A model generated the notes under the pieces. That model did not search any database. It was not told the DNA's origin and saw nothing but the letters and a program-made list of their open reading frames with translations. Below, piece after piece: positions 1,446 to 22,192 of a stretch of DNA of 64,000 nt. A program made the translations under genes and the position numbers. The stretch's first letter is position 1. Every line of letters begins with the position of its first letter. This stretch comes from an uncultured Clostridia bacterium. Lineage in GTDB: Bacteria > Bacillota > Clostridia > Oscillospirales > Ruminococcaceae. The DNA lies in contig CAMVNQ010000008.1 of NCBI GenBank assembly GCA_947168885.1, forward strand, positions 1-64,000, given 5' to 3'.

Positions 1446-3809
1446 TTGAAAAAGTTCAGAAATATCATTGCAACCGTGATATGTGTGTCAATGCTTTCCG
1501 GGTGCTTCGGAAACGGCGGTGTGTCGTCGGACACGTCGGTCGCTGCGTCTGAGTCAACTGCACAGACCGCTGCTCCCGTTACGACGGAAGCAGCTACAGA
1601 GAGCCTGATGTCCGCAGCGGCTCTCGCGAGCGAGGACGAGCCTGACACGAAGAAGGAAGCCCGTCCGCTTATCGCGGCAGTTCCTCTGGTCGGTACTGAA
1701 TATACGCCGTTTTTGCCGGCGGACGATTTCACACGCATCGCGGACAAGCTGACCGGAGTGACGCTTATAAGCCGCACAAGAGGCGGAAACCCAGTCATGA
1801 CCGGAACGAATGTGACAACCGAGCGTTACGGAGGGAAAGCCTATACCTACAACGGCATTGCGGATGTATTGAAGAGATACGATGAAGAGAGCGATACCAC
1901 GGCGTACACCTTTTCGCTTCGCAGAGACGTAAGGTTTGCGGACGGAGAGACGCTTAACGCCGACGATATAATCTTTACGCTGTATCTGCACCTTGACCCC
2001 GCTTATTCTGGAAATCTCCCGCTTCAGGATTCGGGCATAATCGGTTCGATAAACTATCACTATGACAACTCTTCCGCCGACAACATCACAAGGGAGAAGA
2101 TAGACGAAGTTCTCGCATCGGAGGAGATAAAGCCGCTTATACGCGACAAGATAATCATACCGACGCTACGCGCGCAGTACGACGCGGTAAGGTCGATGTT
2201 CGACGACAGTTCATACTCGATCTATACATCGAAATACCCCACTCCCGTCGAGCTTTTCGCATTTTTCTACGCGATAAACCTGAGGGACGACAAAGCGGAG
2301 AAATATTCCGCGAAGGGCAAAGACGCGATAACCGTCATTTCAGAGGTCGCCGATCTTTATGACGGAAACTACCGTCAGCTCGCCAGCATAACCATGGGCG
2401 ACGAAACGGTTTTTGACGACGAGGCACTAAGCATCGCCGTAGGGTATATCGCAAAGGAAAACGGCGGTACTTCGGCGGTCGAGAGCGTTCGTTCGGCAAG
2501 CGGTATCGTTCGCAACAACCAGTATTCCGTCACAGTCACTGTGACAGGTGACGGTGCGGCGTTTGAGAAACTTCTCGGGGATATGACGATACTTCCGCTG
2601 CACTATTACGGCAGCGAGCCGCTTTATAGCTATGAGAGCTGTGTTTTCGGATTCATCAAGGGCAAGGCGGACGAGGTCATGCAGAGATTTGCCGACAAGC
2701 CGCTCGGCGCAGGTCCTTATAGATATGTCGGAACTCACAACGGCGCGGCGGAGTTCGAGGCAAATACATACTACTATAAAGGTGCGCCGCAGTCTCCGTC
2801 CCTGAGGCTTGTGGAAAAGGGATTACTGTCTGCGGCAGAGCTGATCGGTGACGGAACTGCCGATATATGTGATGACAACGGCTCCGTGGACAGCAGCACC
2901 GCAGTCGATGAAGCCAACCGTTCTATGGAGAAGATATATGCTTCAATAAGCGCTGAGCCGGGTTACGGTTACGTCGGCATCAATGCCAAGACCGTATGTA
3001 TCGGCGATTCGTTCTCGAACCAGAGCTATGCGCTGCGAAAGGCGCTCGGAACAGCTATCGCGGCTTTCCGCGATGAATCCGTAAGAAGCTATTTCGGTGC
3101 GTTCGGCAAGACCACCGATTATCCGGTCATTGAGGACGTTATCATTGACGAAAAGACCGAGGGATATGTTGTTCCTTATACGCACAACAAGAACGGCGAC
3201 CCGATATTCGCCTCCGGAATGAACGACGAAGAACGCAGCGAAGCTGTGAAAACGGCTTGTCTCGGATTTCTTGCGGACGCGGGATATACCATAACCGACG
3301 GCAAGGTGACAGCCGCGCCGTTCAACGCAAAAACCGAGTTCAGCGCACTTGTTGTCGGCGGAGGGAACGGCGGACATCCGTGCTATACAGCGTTGAAGAA
3401 AGCGTCCGGTCTGCTCCGGAGCATAGGGATAACGCTGAAAGTTACCGATCTTTCCGACGCCGGGGCTCTCTGGGAAGCACTTAACGACGGCACTAACGAG
3501 ATCTGGGCGGGCGCATGGAACACCGAAACACTCTCAACGATATATGTTGACAGCTATTACGGCGCGGATTCCACCAAGCTAAAGCTGCTTATAAGAGATG
3601 CGGAGGCTGCCTCCGGCGCGGACAGGAAGGCAGAGTTCATGAAGTGCTACGATAAGATACACAACACCTACGCGACTGAGATACCGATGTATCTCCGCAC
3701 GAGATGCACACTTTTCAGCACGCTTCGCATCGACGCCGAGACATATCCGACGGATATGTCGGACACTTACGGGTGGGTGGACGAAATAGCCAATATCCGA
3801 GTAAAGTAA
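1446..3809 (+). CDS. Lipoprotein extracellular solute-binding protein, family 5 (OppA/DppA type)
   Basis: 787 residues. A signal peptide ends in the lipobox LSGC (residues 17-20), so the protein should be lipidated and held on the outer face of the membrane. After a Ser/Thr/Ala-rich linker (20-75) comes the family 5 substrate-binding fold; [18 protein letters not shown] (about 165-182) is the characteristic motif of peptide and nickel ABC binding proteins. It is longer than the usual 500-600 residues. The start codon is TTG, preceded by GGAGTG 8 bases upstream; no ATG fits. No permease or ATPase gene is adjacent, so it must share a distant transporter or act as a sensor. The substrate is probably an oligopeptide, but that is inferred only from the family. 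Confidence 0.85.
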
Positions 3810-3871
3810 AAGCACCAATAAATGCAGAAAGCCCTGTTTTCAGCGGGGTACGGCATCGGACGGTTCATGAT

Positions 3872-4990
3872 ATGAAAACATACGTTCTTATCCTTGCGGG
3901 GGGAGAATCCCGCAGAATGGGCGGGATAAACAAGCAGTTCGCTCTTGTCGGCGGCGTTCCCGTCATAATAAAAAGTGCCCTCGCGTTTGAGAACTCGCCC
4001 GAGATCACCGATATAGTCATAGCGGCGCGCGAATGCGATATGGACAGGATACAGGCACTCTGCGCCGAGCACGGGATAACAAAGCTGCGGTGTATCGTTC
4101 CGGGAGGAAGTTCGCGCACAGATTCGGCAAGACACGCGTTCTCTGCTGCTGAAGATGCCGATATTATAATGGTACACGACGGAGCAAGACCCTATGTCAG
4201 CGGAGAACTAATCTCGCGGATTCTTCGGGACTGCATGACATACGGTGCGGCAATACCGTCGCTTCCGCTGAAAGATACCGTGAAGTTTACGGACTCGGAC
4301 GGATTTTCGGCAGGCACTCCCGACCGCGCGGCACTTTGCTCGGTACAGACACCGCAGGCGTTCCGTGCAGAGCTTTACAGAGACATGATGCTTTCGGGGA
4401 AGGAAGCGACCGACGACGCTGGACTTGCGGAACTTCTCGGGATAAAGGTGAAGCTCACCGAGGGCGATCCGGGGAATATCAAGATCACCACGGCAGACGA
4501 CCTGCCAAAGGAGGACTGCGCTATGTTTCGCATCGGTCACGGCTATGACGTGCATATCCTTGCGCCGGACAGAAAGCTCGTTATCGGCGGAGTCACGATA
4601 CCCTATGAGCTCGGGCTTCTTGGACATTCTGACGCGGACGTGCTCGTTCACGCGGTAATGGACGCTATGCTCGGGGCACTTGCGCTCGGAGATATCGGAA
4701 AGCACTTCCCCGACAGTGACCCTGCCTATAAAGGCGCGGACAGTATCGGGCTGCTGAAAAGGGTGAACGCGCTTATACGCGAAAAAGGGTATCGGGTATC
4801 GAACCTTGACTGTACGATAAACGCGGAAAGACCGAAGCTTGCGCCGTATATCATGCAGATGCGGGAGAGTATAGCGGCTGCCTGCGGGTGCGATGTTTCA
4901 TGTGTGAGCGTAAAAGCCACCACCGAAGAGGGGCTCGGGCTTGCCGGAAAGGGTATCGGAGCAGTGTGCGTATGCCTTCTGAGCAAATGA
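3872..4990 (+). CDS. ispDF: Bifunctional 2-C-methyl-D-erythritol 4-phosphate cytidylyltransferase / 2,4-cyclodiphosphate synthase
   Basis: 372 residues, joining two steps of the MEP isoprenoid pathway. Residues 1-213 are IspD, which makes CDP-methylerythritol from MEP and CTP: the nucleotide-binding N-terminus [20 protein letters not shown] at 101-107 and TPQAF at 160-164 are intact. Residues 218-372 are IspF, which cyclises the phosphorylated intermediate: GHGYDVH (223-229) and HSDADV supply metal and substrate ligands. Separate ispD and ispF genes are more common, though IspDF fusions are known. The N-terminus is placed at 3872 by homology, because the SD there is weak. The gene follows the solute-binding gene by 62 bases without a clear terminator. 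Confidence 0.93.
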
Positions 4991-6721: not shown

Positions 6722-6813
6722 CGTATTATATACAATTGTGCGTTTAGGGGGAAGGTGCGCCCTTTTTCTGCCGCACATTGAGTAAATTCATAGATCATGA
6801 ATGGAGGGTTTAC

Positions 6814-8007
6814 ATGGCATACTATTCCTATGTTGCCACAGATGTCAACGGTTCCACGGTCAAAGGTAAGGAGTATGCGGACGATTATCTTGACCTGTCC
6901 GAAAAACTCCGGCAGAAAAATCTTTTCTGTACCGAATATACCGAGATCGAGGAAAAACAGGCAGACGCCAAGTACAAGTTCAATACCAAGGATCTTGCGT
7001 TTATCTGCCGCCAGCTTTCTTCAATGCTTACCGCAGGTATAAGCCTTGTAAGATCGCTGCACATCCTTTACACTCAGGAAGAGAAGAAAAAGGCCAAGGC
7101 TGCGCTTCTTGAGATATATGAGGATGTTCAGAAGGGTCGTTCGTTCTCGGAGGCGATACAGGCGCGACCCGGTGTATTCCCGCTGCTGTTCGTCAGCATG
7201 GTCGCCGCGGGCGAGGCTTCCGGTAACCTCGACGTCATAATGACCCGAGTTGCGGACTATTACCTCAACCAGAACAAGATCAACAACCAGATCAAGGGTG
7301 CCATTACCTACCCTATCGTTCTGCTTTTCCTGCTCGTCGCCGTATTCTTCGGTCTGTTCATATTCATCATGCCGATGTTCCGACAACTTGCCGGTGACGA
7401 TCTGCCGCCTTTGTCGGCTGCGATGTTCGCGATAAGTGACTTCCTGATACCTTACTGGTGGACGATAATCCTCGGTGTCGGCGTACTTGTCCTCGTTATC
7501 CACTTCTTACGAAAGTCTCCCGCTTTCGGACTGAAGTTCGATGAGATCAAAGTAAAGATGCCTAAGGTCGGTCCCCTCCTTACTATTATATATACGGGAC
7601 GTTTCGCAAGAACTATGGCGAACCTTTACGCTTCCGGTCTTCAGATGGTCGATTGTATCGAGAAGTCGGCAGACACTCTTAACAATCAGTACATAGCAAA
7701 CCTCTTCCACGACAGCGTCGTAGAAGACGTAAAGCACGGTGAAGCTCTTTCGGCGGCAATTACCAAGATCGGCGTGTTCCCGGGCGTTTTCACTTCGATC
7801 ATCATGGTCGGTGAGGAATCCGGTGCACTCGACGATATCCTCAATAAGTCCGCGGACTACTATGAAGATGAATCCGCTACTGCTATCGCAAAGCTTGTAG
7901 GACTTTTGGAGCCGGTAATGATCATTTTCCTCGGTGTTATGATCGGTATGATCCTCGCCGGTATCTTCCCGATACTCTACGGTGGTATGGCAAACGTCGG
8001 CAAATAA
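6814..8007 (+). CDS. pilC: Type IV pilus inner-membrane platform protein PilC (GspF family)
   Basis: 397 residues with two T2SSF repeats: the first is centred on FICRQLSSMLTAGISLVRSL and the second on FARTMANLYASGLQMVDCI. There are three hydrophobic membrane segments (about 157-190, 212-236 and 365-392), and each repeat ends in the family signature (AAGEASGNLD, VGEESGALDD). PilC is the membrane platform that couples the PilB/PilT ATPases to pilin addition and removal. The start at 6814 follows GGAGG; an upstream TTG in frame has no SD. It is the first gene of the operon, reading toward pilM-N. Confidence 0.93.
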   Translation: MAYYSYVATDVNGSTVKGKEYADDYLDLSEKLRQKNLFCTEYTEIEEKQADAKYKFNTKDLAFICRQLSSMLTAGISLVRSLHILYTQEEKKKAKAALLEIYEDVQKGRSFSEAIQARPGVFPLLFVSMVAAGEASGNLDVIMTRVADYYLNQNKINNQIKGAITYPIVLLFLLVAVFFGLFIFIMPMFRQLAGDDLPPLSAAMFAISDFLIPYWWTIILGVGVLVLVIHFLRKSPAFGLKFDEIKVKMPKVGPLLTIIYTGRFARTMANLYASGLQMVDCIEKSADTLNNQYIANLFHDSVVEDVKHGEALSAAITKIGVFPGVFTSIIMVGEESGALDDILNKSADYYEDESATAIAKLVGLLEPVMIIFLGVMIGMILAGIFPILYGGMANVGK

Positions 8008-8061
8008 GCCTGACAATAAAGACCCGGAAAGAATAAATAACTATTTTTAAAGAGGTGCTAT

Positions 8062-9603
8062 ATGTTATCAATTGATATTACCGATAAGCAGATAAGGCTT
8101 GTCAGAGGTGCGCTCAACGGCGCAAAGATCCGCGTACTTGAAGTTGAGACGCGTGATCTTACTGCAGGATGTGTAAGTAACGGTTACGTAACGGATATAC
8201 CCATGATCGCCGGTGAGATCACGGATATAATCGCTTCTAACAACATCAAGGATAAAGAGGCTATCGTCTGCATCAACTCTGGTTCGATACTCTATAAGGA
8301 CCTTACAGTCCCGAAACCGAAAAAGATCTCCAACTCCGCAGCTATCGAGTCGATGATACTCACGACAATGGGTATCACGAAAGAGTATAACATTTCATAC
8401 TCTGTTATAGGTGAGGATAAGGACGAAAACGATCAGCCTGTACTCAAGATCCTTGCTACTGCTGTTCCGCAGAGAATGGTTGACGGTTACATAAGACTGT
8501 TCACTCAGCTCGGTATCAAGCTCCAGCAGATCAACGTTTCTAACAACTGTATCACGCGTCTCATACTCAATACACCGAAGCTCGAATCTTCGATGCCCTT
8601 AATGCTCGTACAGATAGACAATGACTTCATCAATATCAACCTGTACGAAGACAATCAGCTCGTCATCTCAAGATATGTAAGAGTAGATCCCTACGATTAC
8701 AATAATGACGAGGACTATCTCAATCAGGCGGTTTACGATAACGTATTCCGTACCCTCCAGTTCACGAATCAGCGTAAGAACGCAAAGCCCCTTAAGGAGA
8801 TAATGTTCTACGGTCAGGTAAGAGACTTCATCTCCCTCTCCAATGCGGTTGCTTCGTTCAACGTTCCCTCTCATATTCTCAACATACCCAACAACATCGT
8901 TACATTCTGCGACTTCGACTTTGCGGAATACGCAAACGCGATAGGTGCGTTCTTCAAGGTAAGAAAAGACCTCGACCACGTCAACCTCCTCGACGCGGCT
9001 GCGGTAAAGGAAAAGAAGGGCACCAATATGTTCTTCGTAGGAATGGCTATCGCGGCGGTAGCTTCTATCGGCGTGGTATTCGGAGCGAAGATCGTGTGCG
9101 ACAATATTGCGTCAGACATAAAGAAGAAAGCGGACGCGGTTTATAACGACGTTCACAGTGAAGAGAACCAGAAGAAACTCGATCTTCTCGCTGAGAAGGA
9201 AGGCATCCTTCAGAGCATCTCGAAATATGCAGGCAACCTTCAGGAAGCACAGCGTCTGTTTGAAATGCAGCCCAAGGCTATCTCGGAAGTAAGAAAGATA
9301 CTTGAAGACACACTTGAAAAAGTCGATAAGAATGCTTTCTTTATGGATGAGATTGAGATGGAAGGCTACAACGTAACTGTAACGATTCGCTGCTACGATG
9401 ACGAAACGCCTACAAAGTACGTGAGAGCGCTTATAGATCAGGATTACTTCGATAACATCATTTACTCCGGATTTGCCGGTGAAGAGATCAAGGAAGAGGA
9501 CGAAGGAAAGGCTCTCAAGGTAGAAGAAAAGGCCGGCGATTACAGATACTCGTTCGTGCTGAATATGAGACTCAGAGGAGGCAACGCATATGAAGTTAAA
9601 TAA
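8062..9603 (+). CDS. pilM: PilM-PilN fusion, type IV pilus alignment subcomplex
   Basis: 513 residues. Residues 1-310 have the actin-like PilM fold (N-terminal MLSIDITDKQIRLVRG, equivalent to the nucleotide-binding start of PilM/FtsA). Then comes one membrane helix (about 318-340, FFVGMAIAAVASIGVVFGAKI), a coiled coil (345-400) and a PilN-like ferredoxin-fold C-terminus. In most species PilM is a separate cytoplasmic protein that binds the short N-terminal tail of PilN; here both appear in one chain. SD AGAGGTG precedes the ATG. Its end overlaps pilO by 14 bases, indicating coupled translation. The PilN assignment rests on topology and gene order. Confidence 0.8.
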   Translation: MLSIDITDKQIRLVRGALNGAKIRVLEVETRDLTAGCVSNGYVTDIPMIAGEITDIIASNNIKDKEAIVCINSGSILYKDLTVPKPKKISNSAAIESMILTTMGITKEYNISYSVIGEDKDENDQPVLKILATAVPQRMVDGYIRLFTQLGIKLQQINVSNNCITRLILNTPKLESSMPLMLVQIDNDFININLYEDNQLVISRYVRVDPYDYNNDEDYLNQAVYDNVFRTLQFTNQRKNAKPLKEIMFYGQVRDFISLSNAVASFNVPSHILNIPNNIVTFCDFDFAEYANAIGAFFKVRKDLDHVNLLDAAAVKEKKGTNMFFVGMAIAAVASIGVVFGAKIVCDNIASDIKKKADAVYNDVHSEENQKKLDLLAEKEGILQSISKYAGNLQEAQRLFEMQPKAISEVRKILEDTLEKVDKNAFFMDEIEMEGYNVTVTIRCYDDETPTKYVRALIDQDYFDNIIYSGFAGEEIKEEDEGKALKVEEKAGDYRYSFVLNMRLRGGNAYEVK

Positions 9604-10567
9604 GGTCGAAAAGATCATTCTGGTGGTTATACTGCTTGGTCTCATACTTGTCGGCGGCGCATTCATGTTCGTCGTACCGAGCTTTAACCAGATAGGCAAG
9701 AACGGCGAGGTTCTTTTGAAGAACCAGCAGGAAAAGGCAGAGCTTGATGACAGACTTGCCCGTCTCAACACGATAGATGCGGATATCGAAACCGAAAAGA
9801 ATTCCGCAAAAAAAGCAGAGGGCGGCTTCTATCCCGACCTTACAACCTATGAAGCTTCCGAACTTGCTATGGCATATCTCAAGAGCGCAAAGCTTGAAGC
9901 TCATGAGATAGATATCTCACAGCTTGCTACAAAGGATCTTTCGCTTGAATACTTCATCCCTGCCGAGGTAAAGTACGACCTCAAGGAAAGCGCTGCAGCA
10001 GCAAAGAGTACCAACAGCGATGATGTTCAGCTTGTTGAAGGCGAATTCATGGACGGCAACAAGAAGTACTCCATTTCAGCAACATCGGCTCTCAACGCGA
10101 CGATCAGAGACGAGAACGGCACGGAAATAGACCCAGCAAAGTACAGCGATACAATGAAGAAGGTCTATAAAGCAGCAGTCTGCAAGGCAGTTGCTACCGG
10201 CGGCATGAAGGAAACAGTAGCGTTTATCCAGGCGACTTACACAGTTAAGGGTGAATACCAGAATTACGCTAAATTCATTGACCACATTTACGGCCTCGAC
10301 AGAGCAACAATGTTCACAGCAGTAAAATACCCCGCAACAGTAACGATCAAAGAGGATAAGGATTCCGAGAATATATATATCGGCGAAAACGGAACAATAG
10401 CCCAGGGCTCTGAAGCAAACGGCAAGCAGACTATGGTAAAGCCTGACACAGTAATTGAAGAAGAGCTTACGATATTATTCCTGTGTGTTGAGCCTATGGA
10501 AGGCCTTAAGACTCTCGATGCGGATGGAACGAAAGTTGTTGTTGATCAGAGACCTATAATCTATTAA
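9590..10567 (+). CDS. pilO: PilO-like type IV pilus assembly protein
   Basis: 325 residues. A short cytoplasmic N-terminus is followed by one membrane helix (about 9-30, ILVVILLGLILVGGAFMFVV), a coiled coil (about 36-72) and an extracytoplasmic domain. This is the PilO plan, and the position directly after pilM-N agrees. It is longer than usual (about 200 residues) because of inserted polar stretches around 130-170 and 265-290. SD GGAGG lies inside the end of the preceding gene. PilO pairs with PilN to link the platform with the envelope; in a single-membrane cell it may contact peptidoglycan instead of a secretin. Confidence 0.7.
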   Translation: MKLNKVEKIILVVILLGLILVGGAFMFVVPSFNQIGKNGEVLLKNQQEKAELDDRLARLNTIDADIETEKNSAKKAEGGFYPDLTTYEASELAMAYLKSAKLEAHEIDISQLATKDLSLEYFIPAEVKYDLKESAAAAKSTNSDDVQLVEGEFMDGNKKYSISATSALNATIRDENGTEIDPAKYSDTMKKVYKAAVCKAVATGGMKETVAFIQATYTVKGEYQNYAKFIDHIYGLDRATMFTAVKYPATVTIKEDKDSENIYIGENGTIAQGSEANGKQTMVKPDTVIEEELTILFLCVEPMEGLKTLDADGTKVVVDQRPIIY

Positions 10568-10578
10568 GGAGGACGATC

Positions 10579-13206
10579 ATGCTGAAGTTTTTCTATCGGC
10601 TTAAACGGCGGCACGGTGTTGTACTGTTTGCGGTCATCGCTATAATGACCCTTCTCATAGCAATGGCGACTACAGCATATTTCACTGCGCGGGCATCGTA
10701 TCAGACCGTTGTAAGCAACTACGATTTTTCGCAGACGTACCTGTCGGCGATCTCGATAAGTGATATGCTTATCGAGGCAGTAACGCAGGATACGTCTCAT
10801 CCGGGCGCTGATAATAACTATACCGCCCTTAAAACGGCAGTCCAGAATCTCCGTGACAACAAGACCGCAGGCGCAGCGGACGCTGTGATAACCGGTTTCA
10901 CTGTTCATAACGGTGCCGCAGCGACAGATGCCAATATTCTTACAGAGGCGGCAAGCGACCCTGTTGAAGCAGGTATCTTTGACGCGGCAAAGGTCGAGAT
11001 CAGATATATCAAGAAAGAAGCCGACAAAAACCCGATTACAAATGTGGAGACAGGCCTTACAAGACACTACTTCACATTCACGACCACTGTTTATTACCGT
11101 GATACGACTATTACTGTTCAGGACACGATAATAAACAAGAACGGTACTATATCTTCGAGTGACGCGGCTCCGTTCAGCCGATTCTTCACAGGTACATCGC
11201 AGACCACAGGTGGTAAGGACGTCGGAGACAGCCGAGTTGTTATCATCGATACTAAGAATATTTCGGACGACTCCTACTTCGAGAATGGATATACGCTTAT
11301 AGGCTATAATGAGCATGCCGGCAATGCAATCGATGGTTCGCTCATTTCTTCCGGAAGTCTGGTTCTGTATCAGTTCAGCACAGCAGGTATGCCCGAGACC
11401 ACAGGAAGCAACAGAAACGACTGGTTCATAGGCAATGACCTTGTAATTACAAGAAACGCGTCCAACATCGACCTTAAGGGAAGCAACCTTTATATAGGCG
11501 GCGACCTTATCATAGGCAGAGACGGCGGCTCGAACATAATCAATGCCGCAAACATCTATGTAAGAGGCAATATCTATTACCTGAACGGCGCGTCCGGTTC
11601 CATTAACGGTAATGTTTACCTCGGCGGAAGTGTATTGGGCAATCCCGGAGAAGCAAACAACAGGATATCTCAGCTCGACGCTCTGCTCTCCAGTCAAGGT
11701 TTTACGTCAAACATATCACCATTCGGCACTGGTAACACGGGTGTATTCGGATATAACCAAGTAGGCACATGGGATGACTCGACACCCATAACTATTTCCA
11801 ACCAGGTAATCAGTTCTGACGGTCACAAGTATGAGGAAACACTTGTAGAAGGCATCACTCTCGGAGATGCGTTCGGCCAGAAGACCAAGAAATACGATTA
11901 CGCTACCTACACAGGAAAGGCGGAAACGTATGAGAATGAGCTCAACCTCAATCCGGGTGTTCTGAATATGGATACGTCGTCATTGATGACAGCATCTGAA
12001 CTGTTAGCAGATGATGGTCCAACAGGTGGTACTGGTGTGTTGACAACATCTTCAGTGTCAGGTGATGATTATCACGGAAAGGTGACAACGACGACAACGT
12101 TAACGGCAAATACAGATGGCACGGTAACCTGTGTTATTGAGAAATCCGGAGAGACAATAACACATACTTGGAATGGCGGCACTGAAACTGTCACTAATAC
12201 ACCGGTAAATTCAACTGAAACAAGCACCTATACAAAGAGCGGAAGCGAAATAACTTTCAATTATGACGACGGAAGCCAGATGACGCTTAACACGTCAACG
12301 AATACTGCGAGAGTAGACGCTCCCGAAGGTGGCGGTGCTACGATCAAAAAAGAAAATCCCTACGATAGCAACTCTAGAATTATAGTTGATGTCGATTACA
12401 CAGAGAATGGTTATCTCCTCGGCATTAACGACGTCAACAATGGTCTTATCACTTATAATTTCAACACCATGTCCGGCACGACTATGCCCGTAGTATTAAA
12501 GGCTAATGTTAAGGACGGTTCCGGTACAAAAGAAGATGCCAACGGCAACAACGCATTCTCATGGTGCGGCGACCTTACCGGACGCAGTGATGGTAAGAAG
12601 GATATCGTTCAGCTTATCCAGGGCGGCGGCGGTTACGGTAACGTAGCTTTTGAGATTGGAAACTATACCGAAACAGATGAAGGCGAGATAAAGTATGTTC
12701 CTGCTACACTCGCGGGCATCAAGTCAAACAAGATCACGACTGCAACTTATTATGAGACCGGTGAACTTATCATCGGAACAAAGGATCAGTGTGATTACCT
12801 TAAGGATAAGGATATCAAGAATAGCCCGAACCTTGAGGGAATGCTCCAGAGCGGAACAAGCTATCCGCAGGATCCTCAGTACAAGAATCACGTTATGCTG
12901 ATTTCCAACAAGGATAACGGCACAGCCATCACAGCAAATACGGCTAACGGTCGTGTACTCTGCGGTTATATCTACGCGCCCGATGGCGTTTACAAGACCT
13001 ATGATGACCAACAGAAGAAGACTATCTTCGGCGGAATGATCGTATCTATCTACGAGACAAAGATGACTTACTTCACATACGCTTCTCCTGACCCGACAGA
13101 TATCGCAAGCATACTCTCAAGTATGTCGAGTGAGGAATTCGGCGGTACGGATACCCCGACAGCGGGTGTATGGTCGCTTCAGGAAGGCAAGAACTATCTC
13201 GGTTAA
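10579..13206 (+). CDS. Large PilX/GspK-like minor pilin with repeated beta-strand surface domain
   Basis: 875 residues. The N-terminus MLKFFYRLKRRHGVVLFAVIAIM has the basic leader, HG junction and hydrophobic helix of a class III signal peptide but lacks the Glu at position +5, as do GspK-type tip pseudopilins. Residues about 225-365 are short Gly/Asn-rich beta repeats (GGDLIIGRDGGSN, NVYLGGSV) resembling a beta-solenoid. Residues about 478-610 are Thr-rich with a different base composition and may be an inserted domain. SD AAGGAGG precedes the ATG. It sits between pilO and two prepilins, suggesting a pilus-tip adhesin or initiation subunit. Function is inferred from position and N-terminus only. 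Confidence 0.65.
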   Translation: MLKFFYRLKRRHGVVLFAVIAIMTLLIAMATTAYFTARASYQTVVSNYDFSQTYLSAISISDMLIEAVTQDTSHPGADNNYTALKTAVQNLRDNKTAGAADAVITGFTVHNGAAATDANILTEAASDPVEAGIFDAAKVEIRYIKKEADKNPITNVETGLTRHYFTFTTTVYYRDTTITVQDTIINKNGTISSSDAAPFSRFFTGTSQTTGGKDVGDSRVVIIDTKNISDDSYFENGYTLIGYNEHAGNAIDGSLISSGSLVLYQFSTAGMPETTGSNRNDWFIGNDLVITRNASNIDLKGSNLYIGGDLIIGRDGGSNIINAANIYVRGNIYYLNGASGSINGNVYLGGSVLGNPGEANNRISQLDALLSSQGFTSNISPFGTGNTGVFGYNQVGTWDDSTPITISNQVISSDGHKYEETLVEGITLGDAFGQKTKKYDYATYTGKAETYENELNLNPGVLNMDTSSLMTASELLADDGPTGGTGVLTTSSVSGDDYHGKVTTTTTLTANTDGTVTCVIEKSGETITHTWNGGTETVTNTPVNSTETSTYTKSGSEITFNYDDGSQMTLNTSTNTARVDAPEGGGATIKKENPYDSNSRIIVDVDYTENGYLLGINDVNNGLITYNFNTMSGTTMPVVLKANVKDGSGTKEDANGNNAFSWCGDLTGRSDGKKDIVQLIQGGGGYGNVAFEIGNYTETDEGEIKYVPATLAGIKSNKITTATYYETGELIIGTKDQCDYLKDKDIKNSPNLEGMLQSGTSYPQDPQYKNHVMLISNKDNGTAITANTANGRVLCGYIYAPDGVYKTYDDQQKKTIFGGMIVSIYETKMTYFTYASPDPTDIASILSSMSSEEFGGTDTPTAGVWSLQEGKNYLG

Positions 13207-13259: not shown

Positions 13260-14516
13260 ATGAAAAAGCTAAAATTTAACATCCGCAAGGGTTTTACCCT
13301 TGTTGAATGTATCATTGCTATCGCCGTTTTTGCCATAATGACAAGTATGGTGCTCATGATAATGGCATCAACGGTAAAATTGTCCAAGAGGGCGTCGGAA
13401 TCCGAGTCCGGTCTTAACCAGCTCGTTCAGAACGTCGTTCAGGATAACTCAAACAAAACATACAGTACTCATGATTCAGAAACGCTCAATATGAAGTTTT
13501 CCGGCGCGTACAGCGCAGACTTCGCAATGAGCTACAGCAGAGTTGACGGCGCAAGAAATATGTTCAGATGCCCATCCTGTAGCTATGAATCAAACAGCAT
13601 GGAGTTCATGAGCTATATTTTTTCTAATGCCGACTATGTGGCTGCGTCTGATGCGGATAAGAAAAGGTTCAAGATAAGTCACTGGTTCGATCCGAGCGTT
13701 GCCAGCAGAAGCAATTATGTGTGTCCGGAGTGCGGAACTGCTACAAATGCCGCTTCAGTCAATATGATGTGCATATCCTGTGAGAGAACAGGCACAGCAA
13801 AGGATTCATTTATCTATGACAACATTAATGGCGGTTATTCCTGCCCTGCTTGTAACAGTGGTAAGGTCGTACAGCTTGATGCTACATCCGGTCAGCCGAT
13901 CAATCAGGACATGGTAAACACCAACTACGACTTCAAGATAAGCAGTATTCAGTCCAACGCGATCAGATATGCGCATATCGAAGAGCCTACTGCTGATGAC
14001 AGAAAGGATTTCCTGCATATTTCCGCTCCTGCTTCACCCGAAACAGATACATTCACCATGCAGCTTGACTATTCGGCGAGCACAGTAGCACAGGCGGTTG
14101 GTGTCTATACGCTTCGTATTTCGGGTATAAACAATTTTGAAAGCGGCGATATAGCTTCTGTCGTTATCTATCTTCCCGGCGGATATGTGTGCAACCTTCT
14201 TCCGACCAGCTCTACAAACGTTGCAGGTAAACCGGTCGTAGCCGGTAAACCGCTTGCATCGTGGACACAGCCTGACGAAGATGAATCCGGAAAGCGTTAT
14301 ACCAATACAAATCAGAAGTCAAAGATAAGTATAACCGGTATAGAAACAACAAACCAGAGCGATGCTATCATAAAGTTCACGCTTACGAATTACAAAAATA
14401 ACCATGATTTCGAAGACGACTTCAGCGAAGAAGGCGGTCTTATGAAGTTCTGGTTCGGACATAGCGGAAACACGATGTTATTCACGAATCCGCCTCCGGA
14501 ACCTGCGGGACCGTAA
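13260..14516 (+). CDS. Type IV prepilin with four CxxC pairs
   Basis: 418 residues. RKGFTLVECIIAIAVFAIM (9-27) is a textbook prepilin cleavage site: cut after Gly, Phe at +1, Glu at +5, hydrophobic helix. The exported part has four CxxC pairs: C104/C107, C155/C158, C171/C174 and C195/C198, with CP.C spacing typical of zinc ribbons. That is rare in a pilin, which usually has one disulfide. The remaining 220 residues are predicted beta-rich. SD AAAGGA precedes the ATG. It follows the PilX-like gene by 53 bases. It is too long for a usual major pilin (about 150 residues), so it is likely a minor pilin, though no shorter pilin gene is present here. Confidence 0.82.
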   Translation: MKKLKFNIRKGFTLVECIIAIAVFAIMTSMVLMIMASTVKLSKRASESESGLNQLVQNVVQDNSNKTYSTHDSETLNMKFSGAYSADFAMSYSRVDGARNMFRCPSCSYESNSMEFMSYIFSNADYVAASDADKKRFKISHWFDPSVASRSNYVCPECGTATNAASVNMMCISCERTGTAKDSFIYDNINGGYSCPACNSGKVVQLDATSGQPINQDMVNTNYDFKISSIQSNAIRYAHIEEPTADDRKDFLHISAPASPETDTFTMQLDYSASTVAQAVGVYTLRISGINNFESGDIASVVIYLPGGYVCNLLPTSSTNVAGKPVVAGKPLASWTQPDEDESGKRYTNTNQKSKISITGIETTNQSDAIIKFTLTNYKNNHDFEDDFSEEGGLMKFWFGHSGNTMLFTNPPPEPAGP

Positions 14517-14534: not shown

Positions 14535-15476
14535 ATGATTAAATTTTTCAGCAGACTTAAACGCCGCAAGGGCTTCACTCTCACGGAAATGATCGTTGTT
14601 ACCGCGATAATCGGTATCATCATGGCTTCCGTAGTCGCTTTCTCGGGTCCTATGCGCAATTCCATCAAGAACACAGAAGCAAAAGCTGATGCTCTTACGA
14701 TAAATGAGGTTCTCGGAAATTATCTTGAGCACAATCTTGCTTATGCGTGCAGGATCGATGCTTTCGTGGGTTATACTTATGAGAACAGTGTTTCTGAGAT
14801 CCGTGAAGCGTATGATCCTACGGGAGGCGCCAGCAACGGTTATAAGGGATTAGCGGCCGAAGCTAACACAACCGTACGAATGTTTGTAGCGCATTTTGAT
14901 GATTCAGGCGAAAAGGGAACGATGAAGTTCTATGATGTAAAGCTCGACGGAGGCGGACTTCCGGCTCTTTCGTCCGTTACTACGAACGACAATCTCGTTT
15001 TCACTGAAGACTTTTTCGGCGACTATCAGTATTTCATGACGATAGACGATGACGACCTCGGAAAAAATACGAACTCGCGCACGAAGAAAGCGTATCTGAA
15101 CATTCGTCTTGATTCGTATAACTTCGGGCCGGATGATGCTTCCAATATGGATGAATCAACTGTACAGGGTTATTACAGATATGTTATAACAAATGGCGCC
15201 GGTACAAATCCTTTCGAGGATGCAGCAATTGTCAGCGAAAAGACAGGCAGTGAAATGATATCCTTTTCACTTGAAAATATCAAGGCTTCAGAAACGAACG
15301 TTTCCGGTATAAAGACCGATGAATTAGGAAATAAGCAGTATTACTCGAACGGAGCTCCGATTTTTGAGACATATCTGAGCGCCGGCGGTGCACAGATCCA
15401 TAAACCGTCTGCAGTAGCGCTTAACGGCAACGATCTCGTTATCCTTTACGCAGTAAAGAAGTACACAGTAGCTTAA
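14535..15476 (+). CDS. Type IV prepilin (PilE/GspG-like N-terminus)
   Basis: 313 residues. RRKGFTLTEMIVVTAIIGII gives the prepilin peptidase site (after KG), Phe +1, Glu +5 and the alpha1 assembly helix. The globular part is Asp/Asn-rich and ends with beta-strand sequence. SD GAGGAGG lies upstream. The gene is the last plus-strand member of the first pilus block and is followed by strong hairpins. It may be the major or a minor subunit; at 313 residues it is unusually large. Confidence 0.82.
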   Translation: MIKFFSRLKRRKGFTLTEMIVVTAIIGIIMASVVAFSGPMRNSIKNTEAKADALTINEVLGNYLEHNLAYACRIDAFVGYTYENSVSEIREAYDPTGGASNGYKGLAAEANTTVRMFVAHFDDSGEKGTMKFYDVKLDGGGLPALSSVTTNDNLVFTEDFFGDYQYFMTIDDDDLGKNTNSRTKKAYLNIRLDSYNFGPDDASNMDESTVQGYYRYVITNGAGTNPFEDAAIVSEKTGSEMISFSLENIKASETNVSGIKTDELGNKQYYSNGAPIFETYLSAGGAQIHKPSAVALNGNDLVILYAVKKYTVA

Positions 15477-15612: not shown

Positions 15613-16701
15613 TCAGACGATACCCGATATCCCGAGATACCACGCTATGATGAGGTCTCCGAAAAGGTATGCCGTAAGGATACCGACTGAAAGGTACGGA
15701 CCGAAAACGACCTGACGCTTACAGGTGACTTTTGTTACCTTCTCATTCGTGAGGACTATCGAGATGCCGAACTTCGACACCTCAGTCAGTTCCGCATCAA
15801 GCATAGCGTTCAGCTCGTCGATGTCGGGTGTGCCGTTCCAGCACTTTGTATCCATGCATTCGGCTTCTATGTCTGACTTTCCCTTGAAGATGCTGCCATA
15901 AATCGCTTCGGTCTTTTCGGGAAGCACATATACGTCCTTCTCCTTCTGGTTGGCATACCATTTTTCCGCTATCTCGACCGACTTTTCCTTGGCAAGCTTG
16001 TTAACGTGTCTCGGAACACTTAAAAGTTCTGCACAGCCACCAATCGCGCCGAGGATAATGCCGATACCCGCGGCAGGGATTATGTTCTTCCACCCGAGCA
16101 GAAGTCCCGCAGCAGCCATAAGCTGAACATCACCGCCGCCCATGGCTCCGAACATCGCAAGTATCCCGAACGGAACAGCGACCGCAACGGCACCGATAAG
16201 GTGATCGTACCACGGCATATCGCCGATGAATACCGACATTATCGTAGTGATGATGCCGAGAACGGTTATCACGATACTGCAGGTGTAGGGTATCTCCATA
16301 CGGTCAATGTCAACTCCGCTTGCTACAACAAGCGCCGCGATAAGTACAAACGCTATCGCAAGCCATACCGTGAGTCCGAGGAATACGAGCGAGAGCGTGA
16401 AAGCGCATGCCGTCACAAGCTCAACTATCCAGTAGCGCGGAGAGATCTTCGCTTTGCAGTAACGGCACTTTCCGCCGAGGAAGATATAGCTGAATATCGG
16501 GACAAGGTCAAGTGTCCCGAGCTGGTGTCCGCAGCTCATACAGTGACTCCTGTTATGGGCGCCGGATATGGGTTCGTGTCTCGGTACACGGATAATGACC
16601 ACGTTCAGGAAGCTTCCTATAACAGCACCGAGTGTAAACGCGAGAACAACGAAGATTACGGGATAGACGACAGGAAATGTTCCGTCGAATATATTGCTCA
16701 T
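15613..16701 (-). CDS. pilD: Prepilin peptidase/N-methyltransferase PilD (A24 family) with a C-terminal insertion
   Basis: 362 residues, about 100 more than usual. The N-terminal methylase domain has the paired cysteines C54/C57 and C79/C82. The catalytic aspartates are in GVDIDRMEIP (D131) and GGGDVQLM (D191). Seven or eight membrane segments are visible. Between the segment ending near 225 and the last one (334-355) lies a hydrophilic domain of about 100 residues (230-330) that ordinary PilD lacks. It cleaves and N-methylates the prepilins encoded just upstream. SD GGAAAG precedes the ATG. It is transcribed against the pilus genes from its own promoter (16738-16766). Confidence 0.92.
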   Translation of the reverse strand: MSNIFDGTFPVVYPVIFVVLAFTLGAVIGSFLNVVIIRVPRHEPISGAHNRSHCMSCGHQLGTLDLVPIFSYIFLGGKCRYCKAKISPRYWIVELVTACAFTLSLVFLGLTVWLAIAFVLIAALVVASGVDIDRMEIPYTCSIVITVLGIITTIMSVFIGDMPWYDHLIGAVAVAVPFGILAMFGAMGGGDVQLMAAAGLLLGWKNIIPAAGIGIILGAIGGCAELLSVPRHVNKLAKEKSVEIAEKWYANQKEKDVYVLPEKTEAIYGSIFKGKSDIEAECMDTKCWNGTPDIDELNAMLDAELTEVSKFGISIVLTNEKVTKVTCKRQVVFGPYLSVGILTAYLFGDLIIAWYLGISGIV

Positions 16702-16766: not shown

Positions 16767-16841
16767 CCATAAAATGAAAAAATATCGGGCACGCCGCAAA
16801 ACTCTGTGGCTGCGCGATCAAATAAATCCGGAGGTCAGCAA

Positions 16842-18530
16842 ATGAAAAACATACCCATAGGTCAGATACTGCTTGAAAGCGGTTATATCACCAAGCAGCA
16901 TCTGGAAGACGCTCTTGTGAAGCAGAAAGAGACAGGCAAAAAGCTTGGTGATATGCTGCTCGATCTCGGCTACGTTTCCGAGACACAGCTTGCTCAGGCG
17001 CTCTCACAGAGACTGAAAGTCCCGTTTATCGACCTTACGACAACAAAGATCGAGACTGAGGCTGTCAAGAAGATACCGGAGGCGGTAGCAAAGAAGAACT
17101 GTGTTATCGCGTACAGGATCAACAACGGACGACTTTATGTAGCAACGAACGATCCGGTAAACTTCTACATTTTTGAAGAGCTGAAGATCCAGACGGGTAT
17201 GGAAATAAATGCCCAGCTCGCCACACGTTCGTCCATAACCGAGGCAATCGGCAGAGTTTACTCAGCCGCTACGGTTTCCAACGTTATGGGTGATATCGAT
17301 AAAGAGTACGATGCCAATGCCGCTCTTATGCAGGATCAGCAGAACGATTCCGAAGAGCGTATCGATAACGCGCCTGTCGTTAAGCTTGTTAACACGATCA
17401 TTGAGTCCGCTTACCGCGACAGAGCTTCCGATATTCATATAGAGCCTTTCAAGGACAGAACCAGAATACGTTACCGTATAGACGGCGAGTGCGTTGAGAA
17501 AATGGCGGTAAAGCCCGCAGTCCACAGCTCGCTCATCACCCGTATAAAGATCCTCGGCGGTATGAACATCGCCGAAAAGCGTATACCGCTTGACGGCCGT
17601 TCCTCGGCAGTTATTGACGGCGTAACGCAGGACCTTCGTATTTCGACCATACCGACCGTTTACGGCGAGAAATGCGTTATCCGACTTCTCGCGACCGGCG
17701 ACGAGAAGGCAAGAAAGATCACCGACCTCGGTATGACCGACTACAACTATGAGATGTTCAGACAGATCATACGCTGCCCCAACGGCGTTATGCTCGTTAC
17801 AGGACCTACCGGTTCGGGTAAGTCCACCACCCTGTATGCTACGCTCGGTGAGCTTTCAAAGCCGAACGTAAATATAGTTACCGCAGAAGACCCTGTCGAA
17901 AAGAAGATCGACGGCGTTAACCAGTGTCAGATGAACGAAAAGGCGGGCATGACCTTCGCCGCAGCACTTCGTTCCATCCTCCGTCAGGACCCCGATATAG
18001 TAATGGTCGGTGAGATCCGTGACGGTGAGACAGCCGATATAGCTATCCGTGCAGCGATCACAGGACACTTGGTTCTTTCGACACTGCATACGAACGATGC
18101 TGCATCGACGATCCTCCGTCTTGTTGATATGGGAGTTCAGCCTTACATGGTCGCTTCATCGCTCGTCGGCGTTATTGCACAGCGACTTGTCAAGCTTCTC
18201 TGTCCGGACTGCCGCGAGAAGATAGTTCTAGACGATCCCGCAGACTTAAAGCTTGTCGGCAAGGATCATCCGGTAGAGATATACCAGCATCACATTGGCG
18301 GCTGCCACACCTGTCACCATACGGGATTCAAGGGCAGAACCGCTATCCATGAGATCATCGTTTCGACGAACGACATCAAGGAGCTCATCGCCGCAAACGC
18401 GACCGCAGAGCAGATCGGTATTCAGGCACGCAAGAACGGTACAAGACTCCTTCGTGACAACGTTACAGACATGGTGCTCGACGGAAGAACAACCATGGAT
18501 GAGCTTGTAAAGGCAACATACTCGGTATAA
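16842..18530 (+). CDS. pilB: Type IV pilus extension ATPase PilB
   Basis: 562 residues. The N-terminal MshEN/GspE-N domain (about 1-150, GQILLESGYITKQHLEDAL) is the one that can bind c-di-GMP in some relatives. It is followed by the hexameric ATPase: Walker A GPTGSGKSTT (about 321-330), Asp box, Walker B VMVGEIRDGE (about 387-396) and His box (TLHTNDA). The zinc-binding tetracysteine motif CPDC (454-457) with CHTC (about 489-492) separates extension ATPases from PilT. The start at 16842 follows GGAGG; an upstream in-frame GTG lacks an SD. pilT follows after 23 bases. A GGDEF enzyme is encoded near 46.3 kb, so c-di-GMP control is possible but unproven. Confidence 0.95.
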   Translation: MKNIPIGQILLESGYITKQHLEDALVKQKETGKKLGDMLLDLGYVSETQLAQALSQRLKVPFIDLTTTKIETEAVKKIPEAVAKKNCVIAYRINNGRLYVATNDPVNFYIFEELKIQTGMEINAQLATRSSITEAIGRVYSAATVSNVMGDIDKEYDANAALMQDQQNDSEERIDNAPVVKLVNTIIESAYRDRASDIHIEPFKDRTRIRYRIDGECVEKMAVKPAVHSSLITRIKILGGMNIAEKRIPLDGRSSAVIDGVTQDLRISTIPTVYGEKCVIRLLATGDEKARKITDLGMTDYNYEMFRQIIRCPNGVMLVTGPTGSGKSTTLYATLGELSKPNVNIVTAEDPVEKKIDGVNQCQMNEKAGMTFAAALRSILRQDPDIVMVGEIRDGETADIAIRAAITGHLVLSTLHTNDAASTILRLVDMGVQPYMVASSLVGVIAQRLVKLLCPDCREKIVLDDPADLKLVGKDHPVEIYQHHIGGCHTCHHTGFKGRTAIHEIIVSTNDIKELIAANATAEQIGIQARKNGTRLLRDNVTDMVLDGRTTMDELVKATYSV

Positions 18531-18553: not shown

Positions 18554-19633
18554 ATGAGCAACAACAACACTATCGATATCAATCAGATCCTTGATGAAAC
18601 AAGAGCAATGGGTGCTTCCGACCTTCATTTTACCGCAGGTCTTCCGCCTATCGTAAGACTTCACGGTAATATAAAGAAGGTATCGGGCTATCCGGACTGC
18701 ACAGAGCCGATAATCGTTAACGTTATCAACCAGATAACATCCATAAAGCATAAGCAGACCATTCAGAAGGGTCTTGACGCCGACTTCTCATACGTTTCCA
18801 GCTCCGGCCACAGACACCGTGTAAACGTATATAGACAGAGAGGTTACCATGCAGTAGCGATGCGTCTTCTCCGTAATGACATACCGACACTTAAAGACCT
18901 TTACCTTCCCGACATTCTCGGTGATTTCGCGCTCAAGCCCCGTGGACTTGTGCTCGTAACAGGACCTACCGGTTCCGGTAAATCGACAACTCTCGCGGCA
19001 ATGATAGACCATATCAACCGTCAGAAGAACTGCCACATCATCACTATCGAGGATCCTATCGAGTATCTGCACAACCACAAGCAGTCGATGCTCAACCAGC
19101 GTGAGATAGGCGTCGATGTTGACAGCTTCGCAGGCGCGCTCCGTGCGGCTCTTCGTGAAGACCCGGACGTTATCCTCGTCGGAGAGATGCGTGACTTTGA
19201 GACGATCAACGCGGCGGTAACCGCGGCAGAAACAGGACATCTCGTTCTTTCGACACTTCATACAACGGGTGCAGCAGATACCCTCGACCGTATCATCGAC
19301 GTTTACCCGCCTCACTCACAGGGTCAGATACGTTCTCAGCTCGCGAACTCGATGGTCGGTGTTGTATCGCAGACACTCTGTGCTACTACAGACGGCAAGG
19401 GACGTGTAGCGGCACTTGAGATAATGGCGGCAACAGACCCGATACGTGCGATGATCCGTGAAGGTAAGATATTCCAGATCCCGAGCTCTATTGCAACAGG
19501 ACGTAAAGACGGAATGTTCTCGCTTGACCAGGATCTTGCAAGACTCGTTCGTAACGGCCGTATCTCCAATGAGCTCGCGCTCTCGAGATGCCAGGATCCG
19601 TCCGAGTACAAGAGATTCTTACAGATGACATAA
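18554..19633 (+). CDS. pilT: Type IV pilus retraction ATPase PilT
   Basis: 359 residues. Walker A GPTGSGKSTT (about 138-147), Walker B ILVGEMRDFET, His box TLHTTGAADT and the PilT signature in the C-terminal domain (the AIRNLIRE-like motif appears as PIRAMIREGK). There is no tetracysteine motif, as expected for PilT. It powers filament retraction and thus twitching or DNA uptake. SD GGAG precedes the ATG. It is the last gene of the pilB-pilT pair and is followed by a strong hairpin. Confidence 0.95.
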   Translation: MSNNNTIDINQILDETRAMGASDLHFTAGLPPIVRLHGNIKKVSGYPDCTEPIIVNVINQITSIKHKQTIQKGLDADFSYVSSSGHRHRVNVYRQRGYHAVAMRLLRNDIPTLKDLYLPDILGDFALKPRGLVLVTGPTGSGKSTTLAAMIDHINRQKNCHIITIEDPIEYLHNHKQSMLNQREIGVDVDSFAGALRAALREDPDVILVGEMRDFETINAAVTAAETGHLVLSTLHTTGAADTLDRIIDVYPPHSQGQIRSQLANSMVGVVSQTLCATTDGKGRVAALEIMAATDPIRAMIREGKIFQIPSSIATGRKDGMFSLDQDLARLVRNGRISNELALSRCQDPSEYKRFLQMT

Positions 19634-20029: not shown

Positions 20030-22192
20030 ATGAAACTCAGACGATTGGGAGCAGGAGTCCTCGCTGCGGCATTATCCGCGACCTCTGTCGGCATATGCGC
20101 TTATGCGGAGGAAGATGCAGCTATGAAGCAGGCTCTTACTTATGTCAAGCAGCGACTTGATATTCCCGAGGAGCTTACCGAGTTCCAGCACCGCACATCT
20201 ACCGAGCAGAACAACACCCGATATACATTCTCATGGAACGACAAGAATGGAAGCAAGAGCATGAATGTTCAGATAACCGGACGTGTTATCAAGAATATAA
20301 ACATTTATAAGGACTGGGACGAGGACGACTATAAAACATCATTCGCGAAGCTTTCGGACGAGAAGCTCACTGAGATCGCGAAAAAGTACATAAAGGAGAT
20401 CAACCCGACTGTCTTTGACAAGATCGAAATAGACAACGAGATCAGCATTTCCCTCTATGGTCCCGAAGCGATACTCGCATTCAGCCGCGTCGAGAACGGA
20501 ATACCTGTAACAAATCAGACCGGTTATGTCTGCATAAACAAGAATACCGGCGAACTTCTGAGATACAACTTCAACTGGATAAACGGCGCGACATTCTCCG
20601 ACGCGAAGGGCGCAATCTCACTCAAAGACGCGCAGAAAGCATACAAAAAGCTTTTCCCTGTAGAGAAGGTATATACTCTCGAATACAACTGGGAGAAGGA
20701 TGAATACATACCCCACCTTATTTATCGCCAGACCGCTGCCGGCCAGATAAACGCGTTCACCGGCGAGCTTTCGACTTTTGAGGATTACAGAAGCTATGAC
20801 ATGGAAAATGGCGACGATGATGCTGCAATGGCAGAAGATGCCGCCTTAACCAACGATGCCAACCCCGGAATGGGCGCTAAGGAAATAACGTTCACCGAAG
20901 CGGAGATTGCGAAGCTTGAAGAAGAAAGTAAGCTGATAAGCGCAGAAAAGGAGCTGAAGGATCTGCAGAAGCTCGGAATATTCTATATCCCGAAGCAGAG
21001 CGAGGTAAGCTCACAGGACTGCCGCTATGACGAGAAGAGCAAGTCCTACATCAGAAACGTGTCGTTCAACGGTGAGACCGACAGATACGTCGATCTCAAC
21101 GGTGATATTATCATTCCGCTTGAAGACGTAAAGAGAAGCAGCGATACATACAGATTCTACGGTTACTTCTCGTACAACGCGGAGACCGGCGAGCTGCTCA
21201 GCTTCAACTGCTCGTCTCCCGATGTCGGCACAAATATGGATACCGCCAAGTACACCAAGAAGGCGGACGAGATCACGAAAAAGCTTCTCGGCGATAAGGC
21301 GGAGAAGTTCGGCAAGCTTGAAAACACATATTCGAACAAGTCCTACTCGAAGTACGACCCCGAAACCGGAAAAGCTATCGGTGAGCCGCGCATCACTTCT
21401 ATGGCGTTCAACGCGAACAGGGTCGAGAACGGTATCACCTGCGTTAATGAAAGCGTATATCTCCGCATCGGCAATATCGGCTATGTAACAGATTATAATG
21501 TTCACTTCAACGCAGACATAACATATCCGAAGCCCGAAAAGATAATCTCCGCGAACAGAGCTTACGCACAGTTCTTCAAGCAGGTCGAGCTCGGACTTAA
21601 ATACCGCTGCGCGTACAAGACCGACGAAAAGAAGGTCGTAAGTGCTCTCGTTTACGCGACCAACAAGAATCTTTATATAGACGCGTTCACCGGTAAGCTC
21701 ACGACTTCCTCCGGTTCTGAGATCTTCGTTGTAGAAGACTCCGGCGACTATACCGACCTCGAAAACAGCGAGTACAAGACCTATGCCGAGAAGCTTAAGA
21801 AGTACGGCATCACCCTCATGGATAAGCAGAACAGACTTAACGGTAATGACCCTATAACAGCCCTTGATTTCAGCAACGTTATGTCCTCTGCGGGTATAAA
21901 CATACGTGCCGACGAAAAGGACAGCAAGATCATAAACGAGGACACAATTGTGACCCGTCAGCTTGCGGCTTACCTTCTTGTTTACGGCAAGTACGGCAAC
22001 GGGATCGCAGAGATGACTTCGATATTCAAGTCGAAGTTCAGCGATGTCAAGGAAGGAAGCAAGTATGTAGGTTTCATCATGATAGCAGATGAGTCGGGAC
22101 TTCTCAAGGGGAACGGCAGCAAGTTCTCTCCCAAGGCAGAGATGACCAGAGGCGAGACACTCAAGCTCATCTACGACTATCTCTCCAAATAA
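20030..22192 (+). CDS. Secreted YcdB/YcdC-domain protein with C-terminal SLH repeats
   Basis: 720 residues. It has a signal peptide (1-26, cut near AYA-EE) and then two related regions with YcdB/YcdC features: GYVCINKNTGELLRYNFNW around 165-185 and FSYNAETGELLSFNCSS around 383-400. An acidic linker is at 255-280. The C-terminal 150 residues carry S-layer homology repeats, clearest in YVGFIMIADESGLLKGNG followed by FSPKAEMTRGE, which bind secondary cell-wall polymer. The protein should therefore sit non-covalently on the cell wall. SD AAAGGAAG precedes the ATG. The biochemical role of YcdB domains is not known. Confidence 0.8.
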   Translation: MKLRRLGAGVLAAALSATSVGICAYAEEDAAMKQALTYVKQRLDIPEELTEFQHRTSTEQNNTRYTFSWNDKNGSKSMNVQITGRVIKNINIYKDWDEDDYKTSFAKLSDEKLTEIAKKYIKEINPTVFDKIEIDNEISISLYGPEAILAFSRVENGIPVTNQTGYVCINKNTGELLRYNFNWINGATFSDAKGAISLKDAQKAYKKLFPVEKVYTLEYNWEKDEYIPHLIYRQTAAGQINAFTGELSTFEDYRSYDMENGDDDAAMAEDAALTNDANPGMGAKEITFTEAEIAKLEEESKLISAEKELKDLQKLGIFYIPKQSEVSSQDCRYDEKSKSYIRNVSFNGETDRYVDLNGDIIIPLEDVKRSSDTYRFYGYFSYNAETGELLSFNCSSPDVGTNMDTAKYTKKADEITKKLLGDKAEKFGKLENTYSNKSYSKYDPETGKAIGEPRITSMAFNANRVENGITCVNESVYLRIGNIGYVTDYNVHFNADITYPKPEKIISANRAYAQFFKQVELGLKYRCAYKTDEKKVVSALVYATNKNLYIDAFTGKLTTSSGSEIFVVEDSGDYTDLENSEYKTYAEKLKKYGITLMDKQNRLNGNDPITALDFSNVMSSAGINIRADEKDSKIINEDTIVTRQLAAYLLVYGKYGNGIAEMTSIFKSKFSDVKEGSKYVGFIMIADESGLLKGNGSKFSPKAEMTRGETLKLIYDYLSK

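Follow-up and report, generated by a model that had tools for sequence, protein, structure and literature searches.

A zinc-ribbon-like, probably metal-bound eight-cysteine module in a lineage-specific modular type IV prepilin of Clostridia

The locus described here raises the question of what holds together an exported pilin domain that carries eight cysteines in four CxxC pairs, and of what such a domain does on a pilus. In this study, we analysed a window of 64,000 nucleotides (positions 1 to 64,000 of the forward strand of contig CAMVNQ010000008.1) from an uncultured Clostridia bacterium of the Ruminococcaceae, in which the open reading frame at 13260-14516 had been described, from the sequence alone, as a prepilin with four zinc-ribbon-like cysteine pairs. 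That initial annotation was exact in reading frame, coordinates and the eight cysteine positions (104/107, 155/158, 171/174 and 195/198). It had given the spacing of all pairs as CP.C; three of them do read CPxC, whereas the third is CISC.

The reading frame encodes 418 amino acids (13260-14513, forward strand; stop codon at 14514-14516) and has syntenic homologues at 17 module-bearing loci. The class III signal peptide noted earlier was recovered by two profiles, Pfam N_methyl (PF07963; 28.6 bits over residues 9-32, cut-off 21.2) and TIGR02532 (28 bits, cut-off 16.3). The leader peptide, MKKLKFNIRKG (13260-13292), was assigned from the N_methyl match, from conserved residues and from the presence of a leader peptidase gene in the operon; G11, F12, T13, L14 and E16 are invariant in an alignment of 18 homologues. 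Cleavage is expected after G11, so that the mature protein would begin with FTLVE and carry Glu5 (E16). DSSP of the predicted full-length model, together with a profile match to module-less pilins, placed an N-terminal helix, the putative assembly stalk of the pilin, at residues 14-60 (13299-13439), with low pLDDT past residue 36, and strands of the same model defined a beta-rich C-terminal pilin body at residues 228-410 (13941-14489). The full-length model (mean pLDDT 70, pTM 0.48) thus has a helix and a strand-rich C-terminal part; a fold search with it against the PDB returned noise only and no pilin match. With the full profile as query, a sequence search of the PDB returned zinc fingers and, over the helix only, geopilin domain 1 proteins. 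On these sequence features, the protein is classed with the modular minor type IV pilins and is made as a class III prepilin.

Its cysteines lie at positions 17, 104, 107, 155, 158, 171, 174, 195, 198 and 311. When ten cysteines were placed randomly in a protein of this length, at least four CxxC pairs arose in 4 of 100,000 trials. Cys17 (codon 13308-13310), in the sequence FTLVEC of the hydrophobic helix, is kept in nearly all homologues with or without the module and is Val in one.

The eight paired cysteines belong to a module at residues 93-210 (13536-13889), which was predicted to fold alone. The knuckles are C104-P-S-C107 (13569-13580), with short strands on both flanks, C155-P-E-C158 (13722-13733), C171-I-S-C174 (13770-13781) and C195-P-A-C198 (13842-13853). 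Conservation of all eight cysteines in related pilus operons had been suggested as a check, and across the 18 homologues they are kept in 143 of 144 alignment cells: seven never vary, and C158 occurs in 17 of the 18, the exception being a relative that reads CPADSSH at knuckle 2 and keeps the partner cysteine. Poor conservation of the pairs, which had been named as a result that would refute the idea, was thus not observed. A 19th homologue also has all four CxxC pairs. Since mean pairwise identity in the module is only about 33%, the pairs are not a product of chance. Besides the cysteines, of which seven are strictly kept, the module has only two invariant residues, a Gly and a Pro, and such strict conservation of eight ligands in an otherwise variable module points to a structural role. 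The spacing of knuckle 1 ranges from 2 to 14 residues among relatives; in knuckles 2-4 two residues separate the cysteines throughout, except in the altered knuckle 2 of the CPADSSH relative. Substitutions in the module favour silent changes: in the closest pairs, dN was 0.24-0.51 against dS of at least 1.0, a range near saturation for dS.

AlphaFold2 predicted the module alone (residues 93-210) with a mean pLDDT of 89.4 and a pTM of 0.79, and placed each knuckle between two short strands in the manner of a zinc-ribbon knuckle. The full-length model is at its best within the module and poor elsewhere; strands at residues 73-78 and 88-93 precede the module and strands within 252-410 follow it, and the module therefore reads as an insertion. 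The predicted arrangement is that of a compact unit of about 110 residues, inserted after the N-terminal helix and its first pair of strands and ahead of the C-terminal beta body. A fold search of the module against the PDB gave no significant match (best E 0.16), and no parent fold is therefore named; many of the loose matches were zinc proteins. Loose sequence matches of the module were likewise mostly zinc-binding proteins (TFIIB, IS1595 and DZR ribbons, RPB12, eL43). Among the Pfam zinc-ribbon models none exceeded its curated cut-off, the best for the window protein being Zn_Ribbon_TF at 26.2 bits against 29, and many of the loose Pfam ribbon matches cover C155-C174. Conservation and the predicted strands together give the arrangement of a zinc ribbon, in which each putative metal site would draw on two conserved CxxC knuckles set between beta-strands, and so bear out the initial description of an exported pilin with a zinc-ribbon-like module. 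Because neither a Pfam cut-off nor PDB significance was reached, the term is used here on the strength of local motifs, conservation and the predicted secondary structure.

The gene lies in a complete type IV pilus operon, between two other prepilin genes. On the forward strand upstream are a PilC/GspF-type platform protein (6778-8007; T2SSF, E=6.8e-56, syntenic), a PilM-like protein (8062-9603; PilM_2, E=3.4e-5, 23.4 bits, under the cut-off of 27), an inner-membrane assembly protein that is PilN/PilO-like by position (9590-10567; named from synteny, with no Pfam match) and an 875-residue GspK-like prepilin (10579-13206). This last protein had no match in Pfam or NCBIfam; its N-terminus, RRHG-VVLFAVIAIM, lacks Glu5, and position 5 is never acidic in those relatives that have a complete N-terminus. 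Those relatives are 809-1015 amino acids long and only moderately alike; PilB is more than 90% identical. Downstream of the module pilin, a 313-residue prepilin with Glu5 (14535-15476, forward; N_methyl 31.6 bits) adjoins it in all 17 module loci. It is followed by the prepilin peptidase PilD (15613-16701, reverse; A24_N_bact and Peptidase_A24), the PilB extension ATPase (16806-18530, forward; T2SSE E=7.5e-129, MshEN) and a PilT-like retraction ATPase (18554-19633, forward; T2SSE E=4.2e-48, with the name taken from position and length). The order is the same in the related loci whose flanks were covered. In every related locus that was compared, whether from a module-bearing or a module-less lineage, pilD is read from the other strand and separates the prepilin genes from pilB. 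Further prepilins with Glu5, probably the major pilins, are located elsewhere in the genome; at L119:5574-6308 and 6765-8995, such prepilins adjoin a gene that by eye resembles a LytTR-type response regulator.

Within the genus, 19 of the 71 genomes encode a module-bearing homologue; the named records are mostly assemblies labelled Ruminiclostridium, Ruminococcus or unclassified Clostridia, and the stated sources of several carriers are rumen, omasum, abomasum, cecum or rectum, with deer and goats as hosts. A phylum sample of 399 genomes contained no carrier in other genera at E 1e-9, and an order sample of 394 genomes gave, outside the genus, only N-terminal or local matches among the matches listed. 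A single branch of the PilB tree, with support 100/99, separates all 17 module-bearing sequences from the others; in the loci beyond it, the same operon slot holds a shorter prepilin that has neither the module nor any CxxC pair. Module-bearing and module-less pilins match each other by profile at 99.5% probability over residues 1-84 only, and the likeness of their C-terminal bodies was judged by eye. Residues 93-210 have an independent predicted fold and are absent from the same-slot pilins of the sister lineages, in keeping with a modular pilin. By sequence comparison, the module is restricted to one lineage of the genus and present in every species found there, which suggests a working part at the pilus tip, and the module pilin is a real, conserved, lineage-specific variant of the modular type IV pilins.

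The reading that we prefer, with a probability of roughly 0.6, is that the protein belongs to the tip-priming complex as a modular minor pilin, and that its inserted module would be stapled by two structural metal sites and would make contacts at the tip or with a ligand. Pilus assembly is started by tip complexes of minor pilins, with a pilin lacking Glu5 as the cap (PMC10191384), and modular pilins display binding domains on pili (PMC8179133). It is on account of the cap-like neighbour without Glu5 and of this precedent that the protein is taken as the modular pilin of a tip complex. In the proposed mechanism, two four-cysteine metal sites, most likely of zinc, would do the work of disulphides in holding the module together, and the site probably formed by C104/C107 and C195/C198 would staple its two ends at the junction with the pilin body. 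The module pilin, the GspK-like subunit without Glu5, which is the probable cap, and the downstream prepilin would form the complex that starts pilus assembly, and this complex would finish at the pilus tip. There the module may pack on the GspK-like subunit, or it may contact surfaces, a fibre or other cells; contact with the cap subunit is nearly as likely as contact with a surface.

The same metal-stapled structure could instead serve assembly only, by docking onto either the GspK-like subunit or the assembly machine, and have no external ligand; the two accounts differ in role alone. The module is kept in all species of the lineage in the same operon slot, and a comparison of the window with L031, the nearest relative, gives 41-45% identity for the three prepilins against 97% for PilB, with the GspK-like (41%) and downstream (44%) prepilins diverging as fast as the module pilin, which is what is expected of co-evolving partners. 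Against it, the same operon occurs in the sister lineages in a form that lacks the module, which is thus dispensable for assembly as such, and we consider a purely structural role possible but less probable than a role in contact. A narrower proposal, that a metal-clasped double ribbon, a fold familiar mainly from proteins inside the cell, forms the extracellular binding head of the tip subunit and replaces disulphides in an anaerobe, is advanced here tentatively and appears somewhat unlikely in that specific form.

As to what holds the module together, sequence and model point very probably to two metal ions, and the metal is probably zinc. Single-cysteine conservation, the CxxC spacing fixed in predicted turns and the one loss of a single cysteine fit metal ligands. 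One of the two putative sites is probably formed by C155/C158 and C171/C174, which are favoured because many of the sub-cut-off Pfam ribbon matches span C155-C174, and the second, by elimination, by C104/C107 and C195/C198. In two Lactococcus membrane proteins, zinc binding has been demonstrated for a CX2CX10CX2C motif, which is similar to the CX2CX12CX2C at the centre of the module (PMC4628341).

Four ordinary disulphides, either as vicinal CxxC bonds or as crosslinks, would be natural in an exported domain; they would also agree with the tolerance of 2 to 14 residues in the first pair, and disulphides are present in Gram-negative pilins (PMC4834066). The earlier statement that pilins usually carry one disulphide holds for the Gram-negative proteins but not for PilA1, the major pilin of Clostridioides difficile, which has no cysteine (PMC4834066). 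DsbB and VKOR were found in none of 20 congeneric genomes and DsbA in none of 12, while control genomes were positive, and metal is therefore likelier than disulphides; the earlier suggestion that metal serves folding under anaerobic conditions fits such an organism. Three of the four pairs have exactly two residues between the cysteines, in predicted hairpin turns, and the CPADSSH relative, which has lost one cysteine of knuckle 2 and kept its partner, looks like a ligand swap rather than a broken bond. The other exported prepilins of the operon contain few cysteines, and obligate anaerobes tend to exclude cysteine from exported proteins (PMC12453122). This is a tendency and no rule here, since a predicted polysaccharide deacetylase-like protein has 2.2% cysteine in a count over the proteins of the window. 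Taken together, disulphides are an improbable explanation of the eight cysteines.

Roles in metal capture or redox had also been suggested, and neither found support; conserved ligands in a variable module point to a structural role. Eight thiolates on an exported protein could in principle capture metal or sense zinc on the pilus; however, the ligands are fixed and, like those of structural sites, lie in predicted hairpin turns, the operon holds pilus genes only and a minor pilin is too scarce to scavenge, which makes such a device very improbable. Rubredoxin-like iron sites, with the pilin taking part in surface electron transfer, are highly improbable, since the local rubredoxin match (E=0.019) covers ten residues and is under the cut-off, the operon gives no hint of electron transfer and a few-copy tip subunit could not make a conducting chain, although four-cysteine CxxC sites are able to hold iron.

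Comparison with known systems showed likenesses on both the pilin and the ribbon side. Streptococcus sanguinis PilB and PilC are, like the 418-residue protein, large minor pilins encoded with tip-complex subunits (PMC8179133, PMC10191384), but in them a linker joins a vWA or lectin domain to the C-terminal end, whereas the metal-ribbon-like module of the present protein is an insert, with the helix side before it and the beta body after it. GspK of type II secretion is also a tip-complex minor pilin, with an extra domain within the pilin body and not at its end (PMC8179133); its insert is alpha-helical and it lacks Glu5, whereas the module pilin has Glu5 (E16) and it is the neighbour at 10579-13206 that is GspK-like. 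The zinc ribbons of TFIIB, DZR, RPB12 and eL43 share CPxCG-type knuckles, 9 to 37 residues between the central pairs and short strands on both sides; unlike the exported module, they are intracellular. The arrangement of four knuckles with a helical insert matched no PDB counterpart in the fold search, and a pilin with a zinc-ribbon-like module was not found in the open-licence literature searched. PilJ of C. difficile also comes from a Gram-positive anaerobe and is a minor pilin whose head is enlarged and unusual, and its crystal structure reportedly contains a metal site. A weak PilJ_Pilin match was obtained over residues 44-98 (E=0.067). PilJ differs in having a dual pilin fold (PMC4471445).

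If metal is confirmed, the module would represent a route to a rigid extracellular domain in an anaerobe that apparently has no disulphide pathway, and the eight cysteines would provide a handle for testing binding by the pilus tips of gut and rumen bacteria.

Two further reading frames of the window were noted. Directly 3' of the pilus genes, 20030-22192 encodes an exported protein of 720 amino acids with YcdB/YcdC repeats (DUF4901) and an SLH domain, and the open reading frame at 3704-4990 resembles, by eye, an IspD-IspF fusion.
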